Source: Sphingomonas sp. dw_22 (GTDB lineage Bacteria; Pseudomonadota; Alphaproteobacteria; Sphingomonadales; Sphingomonadaceae). From it: a stretch of DNA of 64,000 bases. The notes beneath the pieces are model-generated. The model made no database searches. It was not told where the DNA came from and saw only the letters and a list, made by a program, of their open reading frames with translations. A program made the translations under genes and the position numbers. The DNA lies in the NCBI RefSeq assembly GCF_018449795.1, contig NZ_JAAVVE010000011.1, positions 1-64,000 on the forward strand. The letters are read 5' to 3'. This document shows positions 17,914-42,013 of the stretch, piece by piece (within the stretch, counting starts at the first letter, position 1; every line of letters begins with the position of its first letter).

Positions 17914-19191
17914 ATGCCCGATTATTTCCCCGGCTTCGGCAACCACGTCTCCACCGAAGCCGTTCCCGGTGCGCTCCCCATCGGCCGCAACTCGCCGCAA
18001 AGGCCCGCCTTCGGCCTCTATGCCGAGCAGCTCTCCGGCACCGCCTTCACCGCGCCCCGCCACGAGAACCGCCGCTCCTGGCTCTATCGCCTCCGCCCCA
18101 GCGCCGAGCATCCGCCCTTCACGCGTTACGACGGTGCTGCAAACTTCGCCCCTGGCACGGTGGGCCATCCCCTGCCCCCCAATCGCCTGCGCTGGGATCC
18201 GATCCCCGGCCCGTCCGAGCCGACCAACCTGATCGACGGCATGACGACGATGCTCGTCAACCGCGATCCCGCGGACCTGGAGGGCGTCGCGGTCCATCTC
18301 TACGCCGCCAATCGCGACATGGACGCCCGCGTCTTCATGGATGCGGACGGCGAACTGCTGTTCATCCCCCAGGCCGGCCGCCTGACGCTCCTCACCGAGC
18401 TCGGCCGCATCGACATCGCCCCCGGCCAGATCGCGCTGGTCCCGCGCGGGTGCAAGTTCCGCGCGCTGCTCCCCGACGGCGAGGCGCGCGGCTATGTCGC
18501 CGAGAACCACGGCGCGCTGTTCCGCCTCCCCGATCTCGGCCCGATCGGCGCCAATGGCCTCGCCAATCCGCGTGACTTCGAGACCCCCACCGCCTGGTTC
18601 GAGGATAACGACGAACCGTTCGAACTGGTCCAGAAATATCTCGGCAGCCTGTGGACGACCACGCTCGACCACAGCCCGCTCGACGTCGTCGCCTGGCACG
18701 GCAATCTCGCGCCCTGGCGCTACGATCTCGCCCGGTTCAACACGATCAACACGGTCAGCTTCGACCATCCCGATCCCTCGATCTTCACCGTGCTCACTTC
18801 GCCCAGCGACGTGCCGGGCCGCGCCAATGCCGATTTCGTGATCTTCCCGCCCCGCTGGATGGTGGCGGAAGACACGTTCCGCCCGCCCTGGTTCCACCGC
18901 AACGTGATGAGCGAGGCGATGGGCCTGATCCACGGCGCCTACGACGCCAAGGCGGAGGGCTTCGCCCCCGGCGGCCTCTCGCTCCACAACCTCATGGCCG
19001 GCCACGGCCCCGATCTGACGAGCTGGCAGGGCGCGACCAACGCCGATCTCAAGCCCCACAGGATCGAAGGCACCATGGCCTTCATGGTCGAGACCTGCTG
19101 GCCCTACAGGCCCACCCAACACGCCCTCGACCACGCCCAGCCCGACTATGACGCGGCATGGAAAGGCTTCCCCAAGGCCAGGCTCCCATGA
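17914..19191 (+). CDS. hmgA: Homogentisate 1,2-dioxygenase
   Basis: A 425-residue Fe(II) dioxygenase that opens the homogentisate ring to maleylacetoacetate. The N-terminus [19 protein letters not shown] is diagnostic. The iron-ligand region [16 protein letters not shown] shows the H-x5-E arrangement, and the later His lies in [19 protein letters not shown] precedes the ATG. The isomerase and hydrolase that finish the pathway (maiA, fahA) are not in the window. The last base of its TGA is the first base of the 133-bp inverted-repeat element downstream. Confidence 0.97.
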
Positions 19192-19323
19192 ATTCCTCCC
19201 CGGAACGGGGAGGGGGACCATCCGAAGGATGGTGGAGGGGCGGCGGCGAAGCCGCCGTCTTCGACGGCGCCCCTCCACCACGCCCTGCGGGCGCGGTCCC
19301 CCTCCCCGTTCCGGGGAGGAATT
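19191..19323. repeat. 133-bp element: facing pair of three-hairpin units (family R3), 'empty' form
   Basis: The outermost 29 bp are perfect inverted repeats (19191-19219 against 19295-19323), beginning AATTCCTCCCCGG and ending CCGGGGAGGAATT. Each half reads hairpin 1 (CCCCGGAACGGGG), AGGGGGACC, hairpin 2, GGTGGAGGGGC; the left half continues into hairpin 3 (CGGCGGCGAAGCCGCCG). The left end supplies the final base of the hmgA stop; the right end supplies GGAGGA, the Shine-Dalgarno of the next gene. The same unit encloses a DUF559 gene at 25996-26486. Confidence 0.9.
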
Positions 19324-20848: not shown

Positions 20849-20960
20849 CCCTCTCCCGCTTGCGGGAGAGGGTTGGGTGAGGGCTCAGCGCAACGCACTC
20901 TCGATCGCACCTTCACCCGACTCACCCTCACCCCGGCCCTCTCCCGCAAGCGGGAGAGGG
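20849..20960. repeat. Facing pair of CCCTCTCCCGC palindromes (family R4)
   Basis: CCCTCTCCCGC-TT-GCGGGAGAGGG occupies 20849-20872 and is followed by TTGGGTGAGGG. Its inverse, CACCCTCACCCCGG then CCCTCTCCCGC-AA-GCGGGAGAGGG, ends at 20960. It lies between two convergent genes and may act as a two-way terminator. Confidence 0.8.
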
Positions 20961-24370: not shown

Positions 24371-25972
24371 ATGAGCGCGCCGGTGCTGGACACGAAGGTC
24401 TCGGCCGATAGCGAGGCTTTCCGCGCCAATGCCGCGCATAATCGCGCGCTCGCCGATCGCCTGCGCGCCGATGTGGCGCAGGCGGCGCTGGGCGGCAGCG
24501 AAGCCTCCCGCGAACGCCACACCGCGCGCGGCAAGCTCCTCCCCCGCGACCGCGTCGAGCGGCTGCTCGATCCCGGCTCGCCCTTCCTCGAAATCGGCCA
24601 GCTGGCCGCCTGCGACATGTACGAAGGCGAAGTGCCCGGCGCCGGCATGATCGCGGGGATCGGCCGCGTCTCGGGCCGCACCGTCATGATCGTCTGCAAC
24701 GACGCGACGGTGAAGGGCGGCACCTATTACCCCCTGACCGTCAAGAAGCATCTCCGCGCCCAGGAGATCGCCGAGCAGAACCGCCTGCCCTGCATCTATC
24801 TGGTCGATTCGGGCGGCGCCAACCTGCCCCACCAGGCCGAAGTCTTCCCCGATCGCGACCATTTCGGCCGCATCTTCTTCAACCAGGCCAATATGTCCGC
24901 CAAGGGCATTCCCCAGATCGCCTGCGTGATGGGAAGCTGCACGGCGGGCGGCGCCTATGTCCCCGCCATGTCCGACGAGACGGTGATCGTCCGCGAGCAG
25001 GGCACGATCTTCCTCGCCGGCCCGCCGCTGGTGAAGGCGGCGACGGGCGAGGTCATCTCGGCCGAGGATCTCGGCGGCGGCGATCTCCATGCGCGCAAGT
25101 CGGGCGTAGTCGATCACCTCGCGGAGAATGACGAGCACGCCCTCACCATCGTTCGCGACATCGTCAGCCACCTGCCCGCCGACGCTACCCCCGACATCAA
25201 GCTGCTGGATCCCCGCGCGCCAAAGTACGACGCGAGCGACCTCTACGGCATCGTCCCCCAGGATGTCCGCGCGCCCTATGACGTCCACGAGGTCATCGCC
25301 CGGCTGGTCGACGGCAGCGAATTCCACGAGTTCAAGGCGCTCTACGGCACCTCGCTGGTCTGCGGCTTCGCGCATATCTGGGGCATGCCGGTGGGCATCA
25401 TCGCCAACAACGGCATCCTGTTTTCGGAGAGCGCGCAGAAGGGTGCCCATTTCATCGAGCTCGCCTGCCAGCGCCGCGTGCCTTTGCTGTTCCTCCAGAA
25501 CATCTCGGGCTTCATGGTCGGCGGCAAGTACGAGGCCGAAGGCATTGCGAAACATGGCGCAAAGCTGGTGACGGCCGTCGCCACCGCGACGGTCCCCAAG
25601 ATCACCGTCCTGATCGGCGGCAGCTTCGGCGCCGGCAACTACGGCATGTGCGGCCGCGCCTACAGCCCGCGCTTCCTCTTCACCTGGCCCAACAGCCGCA
25701 TCAGCGTGATGGGCGGCGAGCAGGCCGCCAGCGTGCTGGCCACGGTCCACCGCGACGCCGAAAAATGGACCCCGGAAGAGGCCGAAGCCTTCAAGGCCCC
25801 GATCCGCCAGCGCTACGAGGACGAAGGCAATCCCTGGCACGCCACCGCGCGCCTGTGGGACGACGGCATCATCGACCCCGCCCAGACCCGCGACGTCCTC
25901 GGCCTGGCGCTAGCGACAACGCTCAACGCCCCGATCCCCGAACGCCCGGCCTTCGGCGTGTTCCGGATGTGA
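24371..25972 (+). CDS. mccB: 3-methylcrotonyl-CoA carboxylase, carboxyltransferase (beta) subunit
   Basis: A 533-residue carboxyltransferase that moves CO2 from biotin to 3-methylcrotonyl-CoA. Typical stretches are [48 protein letters not shown] (distinctive for the methylcrotonyl enzyme), [29 protein letters not shown] and the [15 protein letters not shown] oxyanion region. It pairs with the biotin subunit encoded at 27325. An AGGAAGG lies 11 bases before the ATG. Confidence 0.95.
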
Positions 25973-25992: not shown

Positions 25993-26403
25993 TCAATCCT
26001 CCCCCAGCTCCGCTGGGGGAGGGGGACCGTCCGAAGGACGGTGGAGGGGCGCGCGCTTGCGCGCGTGCTCGGTCACCAACCGAACAACGCCTTCAAGGTT
26101 ACCCAGCACCTCCGCAGCCGGAATGCGCAATGTCGTAATGCCATGCACCGCCAACCAGGCATCGCGCTTCGCGTCCCGATCCGGCCGGTCGCCACGCTCA
26201 TGCGCCTCGCCATCAACCTCGATGCAAAGCTTTGCAACATCGCAGTAGAAGTCGAGCGAGTAAGGCCCTGCGGGATGCTGCTTGCGCCAATGCTGGTCGA
26301 TCGCCCGCCCGCGAAGTCGTTGCCACAACAGCACTTCGGGAAGCGTAAGCTCGCGCCGGAGTTCCCGCGCGCGTCGATAGGCTTTGCCGCTACCCTTCAG
26401 CAT
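25993..26403 (-). CDS. DUF559 protein, Vsr-like PD-(D/E)XK nuclease fold, inside a repeat pair
   Basis: A 136-residue protein of the DUF559 family, related to very-short-patch-repair endonucleases. Recognisable are TLPEVLLWQRLRG, the WRKQHPAGPYSLDFYC strand with Asp51, and LCIEVDGEAH with Glu62 and Asp64, the expected metal-binding residues, followed by GITTLRIPAAEVL. Residues ~114-136 are encoded by the flanking R3 repeat itself and the stop lies at the repeat's outer end; the start codon begins ~10 bp inside the other repeat. Strand and position are alien to the leucine cluster around it. Function is not known; a nicking role on hairpin DNA is a hypothesis. Confidence 0.85.
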   Translation of the reverse strand: MLKGSGKAYRRARELRRELTLPEVLLWQRLRGRAIDQHWRKQHPAGPYSLDFYCDVAKLCIEVDGEAHERGDRPDRDAKRDAWLAVHGITTLRIPAAEVLGNLEGVVRLVTEHARKRAPLHRPSDGPPPPAELGED

Positions 26404-26486
26404 TCCGCCCTAGCCCCTTCGCGCTTCGCGCGCCCCTCCACCATGCTTCGCATGGTCCCCCTCCCCGAGACAAGCTCGGGGAGGAT
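25996..26486. mobile_element. 491-bp cassette: R3 three-hairpin units facing each other around a DUF559 gene
   Basis: The left unit (25996-26063) and right unit (~26418-26486) are inverted copies sharing ATCCTCCCC at the ends and the invariant linkers GGGGAGGGGGACC and GGTGGAGGGGCGCGCG. The hairpins between linkers differ but stay paired: CCCCCAGC/GCTGGGGG against CCCCGAGC/GCTCGGGG, and ACCGTCC-gaa-GGACGGT against ACCATGC-gaa-GCATGGT. This is the same unit as at 19191-19323, there without a gene. Calling it mobile is inference; no target-site duplication could be confirmed by eye. Confidence 0.65.
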
Positions 26487-41870: not shown

Positions 41871-41979
41871 CACTACGCACTTGCAGCAAGAGCCGCCGCG
41901 TTGCACAAAGATCGGGCCTTTCAGGCATCCTCTCCTAAAACTTTCCAAAGGCCGCCCCTCGGGGCGGCCTCTTTTTTTG
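41871..41979 (+). ncRNA. Candidate small RNA (~108 nt) ending at a rho-independent terminator
   Basis: A promoter TTGTAG (41836-41841), 17-bp spacer, TGATAC (41859-41864) points to a start near 41871. The transcript would contain a pyrimidine-rich, unpaired ATCCTCTCCTAAAACTTTCC stretch, able to pair with Shine-Dalgarno sequences, just before the terminator hairpin. No open frame with coding character lies inside. It diverges from marR. This is predicted from layout only. Confidence 0.4.
41949..41978 (+). terminator. Strong rho-independent terminator
   Basis: AGGCCGCCCC (41949-41958) pairs with GGGGCGGCCT (41961-41970) and is followed by CTTTTTTT. There is no plus-strand protein gene upstream for it to end, which is why a small RNA is proposed. 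Confidence 0.85.
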
Positions 41980-42013
41980 TCGTTATCATACCGGCTCCTG
42001 CGAAATCGCTGGA

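Follow-up and report, generated by a model that had tools for sequence, protein, structure and literature searches.

A DUF559 nuclease gene between facing two-hairpin units in Sphingomonas: a candidate repeat-nuclease element comparable to REPIN-RAYT

Beside mccB in the genome of Sphingomonas sp. dw_22, a small gene for a DUF559 protein is enclosed by two inverted copies of a hairpin-bearing repeat, an arrangement that raises the question of whether gene and repeat belong together and, if so, in what kind of element. An earlier note on this DNA, made from the sequence alone, had answered by analogy, giving the DUF559 nuclease the part that the RAYT transposase plays for REP repeats. The window (the whole stretch of DNA analysed, 64,000 nucleotides) contains the following features.

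24371 to 25972, plus strand: mccB (carboxyl transferase), left neighbour and anchor of the empty-site comparison
25993 to 26403, minus strand: DUF559 (EDxHD/Vsr-like) nuclease gene, 136 aa (from the ORF list, Pfam and an 18-sequence alignment)
25996 to 26049, plus strand: left unit (hairpin 1 at 25998-26022, hairpin 2 at 26026-26042, linker GGAGGGG to 26049)
26048 to 26069, plus strand: third hairpin (CGCGCG...), well formed beside the left unit only and not conserved
26433 to 26486, minus strand: right unit, facing the left one (hairpin 1 at 26460-26484, hairpin 2 at 26440-26456)
about 19193 to 19323, no strand assigned: gene-less facing pair of the window-type repeat family, inner gap 29 bp
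20849 to 20960, no strand assigned: gene-less hairpin pair of a second repeat family (CCCTCTCCC...GGGAGAGGGTTGGGTGAGGG)

Each unit is ordered hairpin 1, linker GGGGAGGGGGACC, hairpin 2, GGTGGAGGGG, and both linkers, which had been called invariant, are exact in both window units; GGGGAGGGGGACC overlaps bases of hairpins 1 and 2. The motif GGTGGAGGGG occurs 6 times in the window versus 0.23 expected, and the left and right units each fold 5.3 to 5.5 sd better than shuffles. The earlier note described a three-hairpin, ~68-bp unit, but the third hairpin lies outside the family, leaving hairpins 1 and 2 as the conserved pair in a unit of ~54 bp. ORF and unit coordinates likewise place the 136-aa gene between two inverted copies, though not "exactly between" them: its 3′ end overlaps the left unit, which covers the last 18 codons, and the ~23 repeat-derived codons once counted are reached only by including the CGCGCG stretch. 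The gene-less pair noted at 19191-19323 is real, at the slightly different bounds listed above, and the second family, at 20849-20960, belongs with a different DUF559 gene of the source genome (L010), which it boxes. Neighbours of the window gene are the carboxyl transferase, a lumazine-binding/SnoaL-like ORF, and a DUF3088 ORF, with no methyltransferase among them. A search of the window for regulatory RNAs (Rfam, gathering thresholds) gave a sole match away from the cassette, the suhB/mmgR small RNA at 41909-41985 (plus strand, 53 bits).

The window protein matches Pfam DUF559 at 82.2 bits, and its AlphaFold2 model has a mean pLDDT of 82.9. The best PDB match is 3hrl (gonococcal NGO0050), followed by 3r3p, the catalytic domain of the homing endonuclease I-Bth0305I, which ranks second both by sequence (E 1.9e-6) and by structure (Foldseek E 5.2e-5); further structure matches include Toxoplasma mitoribosome chains and PvuRts1I, with Vsr at ranks 15 and 18. 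Residues E23, D51, D64, H68, and D77 fall at invariant columns of the 18-sequence alignment, and sequence and model comparisons both point to an EDxHD core similar to that of I-Bth0305I. No Y1 HUH transposase was recognized: Pfam returned DUF559 and, below cut-off, MTES_1575 and DUF2726, and the PDB relatives are Vsr/EDxHD endonucleases. Since the enzyme is no HUH protein, a REP-type system in the strict sense is not supported; nor is a new nuclease family, as had also been proposed, because a DUF559 gene was already placed in the EDxHD homing-endonuclease family in the available text of PMC9403480. The window protein has no listed match to Vsr (TIGR00632), to which two relatives score 19.2 and 17.9 bits against a cut-off of 97.85, and in a PADLOC search for anti-phage defence it covers 60 of the 1078 positions of the DpdF model, too little for an assignment. 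The Caulobacter DUF559 protein VsrA has been interpreted as a mismatch-repair nuclease, with a proposed active site of E73, D102, D115, H119, and D124 (PMC12907096, as far as its text was available).

Boxing was scored by aligning the 300 bp upstream of a gene to the reverse complement of the 300 bp downstream, a score of at least 16 (a threshold set after a first look at the scores) being counted as boxed; the loci were the best-scoring matches per search plus chosen extra matches (60 further places), a sample that is not random. Across Pseudomonadota overall, 93/125 DUF559 places are boxed: 6/6 in the source genome (one a broken gene), 44/49 in the genus set, and 43/70 in the Pseudomonadota set; L066, entered as unboxed in the 125, scores 16 with the right bounds. 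Several repeat families do the boxing in the source genome (e.g., GCCCTCTCCCGCTTGCGGGAGAGGGTTGGGTGAGGGTG flanking L010). The broken gene there (L015, G000:C12:195462-195765), interrupted by a stop or shift, keeps inverted repeats on both sides; L015 and L016 are its two pieces, and L015 alone was counted. Pairing the flanks of different loci gave no usable control, given the many orthologous loci and related repeats among them; further genes from these loci and from the window, together with distant viral homologues, served instead. Among these control genes, 1/79 is boxed (0/33 in the window, 1/46 in the loci), the single match lying in L104, whose DUF559 gene has another ~5 kb away; size-matched control ORFs (100 to 250 aa) gave 0/41. 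On viral contigs, close relatives are boxed in 15/22 cases and distant homologues in 0/50 tested (6/56 loci were left out, their bounds being too short). A second set, of 80 named loci, reached other phyla; 55/79 of these are boxed (L346 was dropped as an N-run artefact), and closely similar cores (CCCTCTCCC...GGGAGAGGG, TT/TA, GGG(T/A)GAGGG) recur in loci labelled Desulfobacterales, Planctomycetota, and Rickettsiales, although many records of this set are metagenome bins, whose phylum labels are only as sound as the binning. Genes of the window type are boxed at 26/30 loci (partly overlapping the earlier places), and boxed named records include Novosphingobium, Sphingobium, and Sphingomonas parapaucimobilis (scores 23 to 24). 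On the question raised in the earlier note, whether DUF559 genes sit inside unit pairs above chance, boxing is far commoner for them (93/125 and 55/79) than for control genes (1/79).

Below the threshold are 32/125 places (L066 included) and 24/79 in the second set, among them E. coli ycjD (score 8) and the genes of N. gonorrhoeae (10) and Azospirillum brasilense (12). At one orthologous site in four genomes (L086, L095, L120, L121), the DUF559 gene is kept but unboxed, possibly as a domesticated copy. Facing units are the rule, though not a universal one: the G-rich tail points gene-ward in 71 of the 93 boxed loci, away in 10, and ambiguously in 12, with corresponding figures of 40, 9, and 6 in the second set (n = 55). 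By base counts, the seemingly outward units are those of L012, L015, L043, L074, L079, L092, L113, L124, L140, and L147 in the first set and of L297, L298, L300, L317, L321, L322, L324, L364, and L366 in the second. At L012, a further palindromic insert (AGTTGCAGG...CAACT) seems to split one flanking unit (~470-575), and a poly-G run at 1-100, the start of contig G000:C2, is probably an assembly artefact.

The layout is shared by a second enzyme type. Small GIY-YIG genes of the same genus are boxed at 20/27 testable loci (L262-L291; 350-bp flanks, without a control of their own; 3/30 loci were too short and were left out), and GIY-YIG is a homing-endonuclease fold as well (PMC3943268, available text). 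Their boxing repeats differ from those of DUF559 genes (e.g., CCGTTCGCCCTGAGCTTGTCGAAGGGC, GTCATGCTGAACTTGTTTCAGCATCC), and those tested are absent from the window.

Genome-wide, the pattern GAGGGGGACC-N(2-26)-GGTGGAGGGG yields 80 exact units in the source genome versus 0 for the reversed pattern, and 60 of the 80 form 30 facing pairs (counted by hand from the list), two of which enclose a DUF559 gene, in the window and on contig C27. The fetched loci contain 22 readable facing pairs: the gene is absent from 20, whose units stand 29 to 54 bp apart, and present in 2, with gaps of 350 and 383 bp. The paired compensating changes that had been read from the window copies hold for hairpin 2, which occurs in 33 distinct sequences among the 80 units: its outer four positions pair in 95% (G-T allowed), compared with 65% when the halves are re-dealt (maximum 76% in 1000). 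Inspected by eye, aligned unit copies have an outer edge of AATTCC or GATCC, the outer flanks of the 22 facing pairs revealed no direct repeat, and G-runs, considered for a G-quadruplex reading, vary and are not kept in every repeat family. Plasmid records searched for closely matched sites offered no base-exact empty site, every match being <60% identical; in the sampled species, the flanks are too diverged to resolve a target duplication or a base-exact junction.

Unit number goes with the cognate gene. Across 61 genomes, the median is 19.5 units where a window-type DUF559 gene is present (40 genomes) and 1 where it is absent (21 genomes; Mann-Whitney p 5e-9; Spearman 0.79), figures that ignore relatedness and include the gene's own two units; the expectation that repeat number tracks DUF559 presence agrees with this difference. 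The window-type class comprises matches of at least 87.1 bits, a cut set by eye, with units checked for some members only. Every genome with at least 16 units has a window-type gene (25/25), and three genomes have the gene with at most two exact units. The correspondence extends to subtypes: with the cassette's own units subtracted, units carrying the window-subtype hairpin 1 are commoner in the 9 genomes that have that subtype's gene at mccB (p 6e-5), although such units also occur in genomes without it there (G020, 20; G014, 11; G003, 8). More broadly, 41 of 299 Pseudomonadota genomes have both a general form of the motif and DUF559, 7 the motif only, 71 DUF559 only, and 180 neither, giving an odds ratio of 14.8, for which weak DUF559 matches to E 0.001 were included and relatedness was ignored. 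These comparisons support the view that units are numerous in genomes holding the cognate gene.

Protein type and repeat type also covary at non-orthologous sites. With 88/125 loci boxed at a threshold of 18, and with pairs having homologous flanks removed, protein and repeat similarity correlate across all loci (r 0.30; 0/1000 permutations as high) and across the 49 genus loci (Mantel r 0.46; 0/1000 as high), where the nearest protein has the same repeat in 30/49 cases versus 4.8 expected (unrelated-flank comparison). At one orthologous site present in 13 genomes, two repeat forms broadly track two protein groups. The comparison thus supports DUF559 nucleases and two-hairpin units as cognate pairs.

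The mccB-mccA junction permits a comparison of occupied and clean sites. We read downstream from 60 mccB loci in 58 genomes (a second, 53%-identical match in G010 was left out); L165 and L248 were unreadable, leaving 58 junctions, of which 15 hold a window-type cassette, 26 are clean (0 to 54 bp to the next gene), 1 has a lone outer hairpin in 57 bp, and 16 contain other sequence. Empty-site variation, whose absence the earlier note had named beforehand as refuting its reading, is therefore present. The lone outer hairpin (CCTCCCCCTTCCGGGGAGG), at the otherwise empty site of L172, is possibly a scar. Where six genomes have a GIY-YIG ORF at this same site (L247, by eye only, L189, L231, L186, L185, and L188, all among the 16 other-sequence junctions), others have the DUF559 cassette. 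A single window-type unit occurs next to another gene at three junctions (two of the six GIY-YIG ones and L250), and a gene-less facing pair of window-type units at 0/58.

On a tree of 30 mccB genes, the presence of the cassette requires at least six changes. Nine cassettes are oriented against mccB and six with it, and hairpin 1 follows orientation, being ~25 nt in 9/9 of the former and 19 nt in 6/6 of the latter; Sphingobium sp. RAC03, in which an endonuclease domain gene lies opposite the carboxyl transferase gene at the mccB site, fits this rule with a ~25-nt hairpin. Subtype matches orientation in 15/15 cassettes, although shared descent lowers the number of independent cases below 15, and this match is better explained by separate arrivals than by inversion in place. 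In-situ inversion between the units, suspected from the mixed orientation, was dropped because of this match and because orientation is constant within other orthologous site groups. At several such sites the gene keeps one orientation across many species, a pattern that reflects inheritance rather than recent movement. At mccB, comparison supports repeated arrival of the unit-gene-unit cassette at a position that relatives have clean.

Taken together, these sequence comparisons lead us to read the cassette, with a probability of roughly 0.6, as a repeat-nuclease element working like REPIN-RAYT with a different, homing-type enzyme. In such an element, the DUF559 nuclease would recognize its own unit and cut or nick it, probably when replication lets the two facing units fold into hairpins or a cruciform; as the break is repaired, cassettes, and gene-less pairs in trans, would be copied to fresh intergenic positions. 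At certain sites, vertical inheritance maintains the gene over long periods, much as it does single-copy RAYTs.

Three other explanations were weighed. A chance association, in which G+C-rich terminators flank many small genes and boxing is meaningless, would fit the terminator-like, G+C-rich arms of the units, but the same test passes only 1/79 control genes, 0/41 control ORFs, and 0/50 distant viral homologues, and the copy-number and cognate tests speak against it too; we consider it highly improbable. The gene could instead be a homing parasite of repeats that spread by other means, entering existing pairs by cutting and being copied in via repeat homology. Such a history accords with the nature of the nearest characterized relative, a homing endonuclease, and with the position of the gene between units, where gene-less pairs have a 29- to 54-bp gap. 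Against it, the 58 readable mccB-mccA junctions, the only site compared, include no gene-less facing pair of window-type units, and a gene that was purely a passenger would not need to be matched by repeat number, as the cognate gene is. We judge this origin unlikely.

Rather less likely still is a house-keeping role, whereby a Vsr-like repair enzyme trims or repairs palindromes or T:G mismatches and adjoins them by action or regulation. The fold similarity to Vsr, the VsrA report from Caulobacter (PMC12907096, in its available text), the long-term inheritance at some sites, and the unboxed state of E. coli ycjD all lean in this direction; left unexplained are the two cassette orientations, the occupation of a site that relatives have clean, and the matching repeat of each protein type.

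A broader generalization comes close to an even bet, slightly on the doubtful side: that small homing-type nucleases (EDxHD/DUF559 and, in parallel, GIY-YIG) form an unrecognized class of mobile element, moving themselves and gene-less hairpin pairs between intergenic sites, and may be a hidden source of abundant G+C-rich palindromes in several phyla. DUF559, a domain of unknown function, would thereby gain a likely job, and orphan palindromes, which are widespread, would gain a probable enzyme. Because gene-repeat pairs of several types can coexist in a single genome, they constitute a natural set for testing how small nucleases recognize hairpins and whether homing-type nucleases can drive transposition-like spread. 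Our searches of the open PubMed Central literature brought up no account of a link between DUF559 and repeats, although one may be printed elsewhere.

Several known systems resemble the cassette in part. MITEs, also short gene-less inverted-repeat elements, are presumed to depend for their movement on an enzyme with its gene in another place, and they differ in that no known transposase family occurs at the present cassette. At L123, a DUF559 gene is boxed by a repeat that we take to resemble the ABC motif. RIME and ABC of Rhizobium are intergenic palindromic elements of unknown function in rhizobia, for which the available text of PMC2573895 names no enzyme. I-Bth0305I (PDB 3r3p) has a similar catalytic fold but is described as longer and multi-domain (PMC3943268, available text), whereas the window gene is free-standing, bacterial, intergenic, 136 aa long, and boxed by multi-copy repeats. 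The protein model suggests a fold similarity to Vsr, and five residues given for VsrA match E23, D51, D64, H68, and D77 by order and kind (from the published residue list only); the window gene, for its part, is boxed by repeats and adjoins no methyltransferase.

The closest parallel is with REP/REPIN-RAYT systems, including TIRtrons, which likewise combine one enzyme gene between inverted palindromic units with many gene-less pairs elsewhere; the available text of PMC3733652 describes REPs or other inverted repeats on either side of RAYT genes. Two RAYT-like traits recur here: a palindromic repeat found throughout the genome has inverted copies on both sides of the enzyme gene, and repeat number follows the cognate gene (relatedness being ignored). 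The enzyme differs, being an EDxHD/Vsr-like nuclease, whereas RAYT is a Y1 HUH transposase; no GTAG or CGTC tag was noticed by eye in the aligned units. The proposal that DUF559 plays the RAYT part accordingly keeps strong comparative support (boxing, copy number, repeat type, and site variation) and loses strict REP membership: the analogy with RAYT suits the proposed way of working but not the classification.
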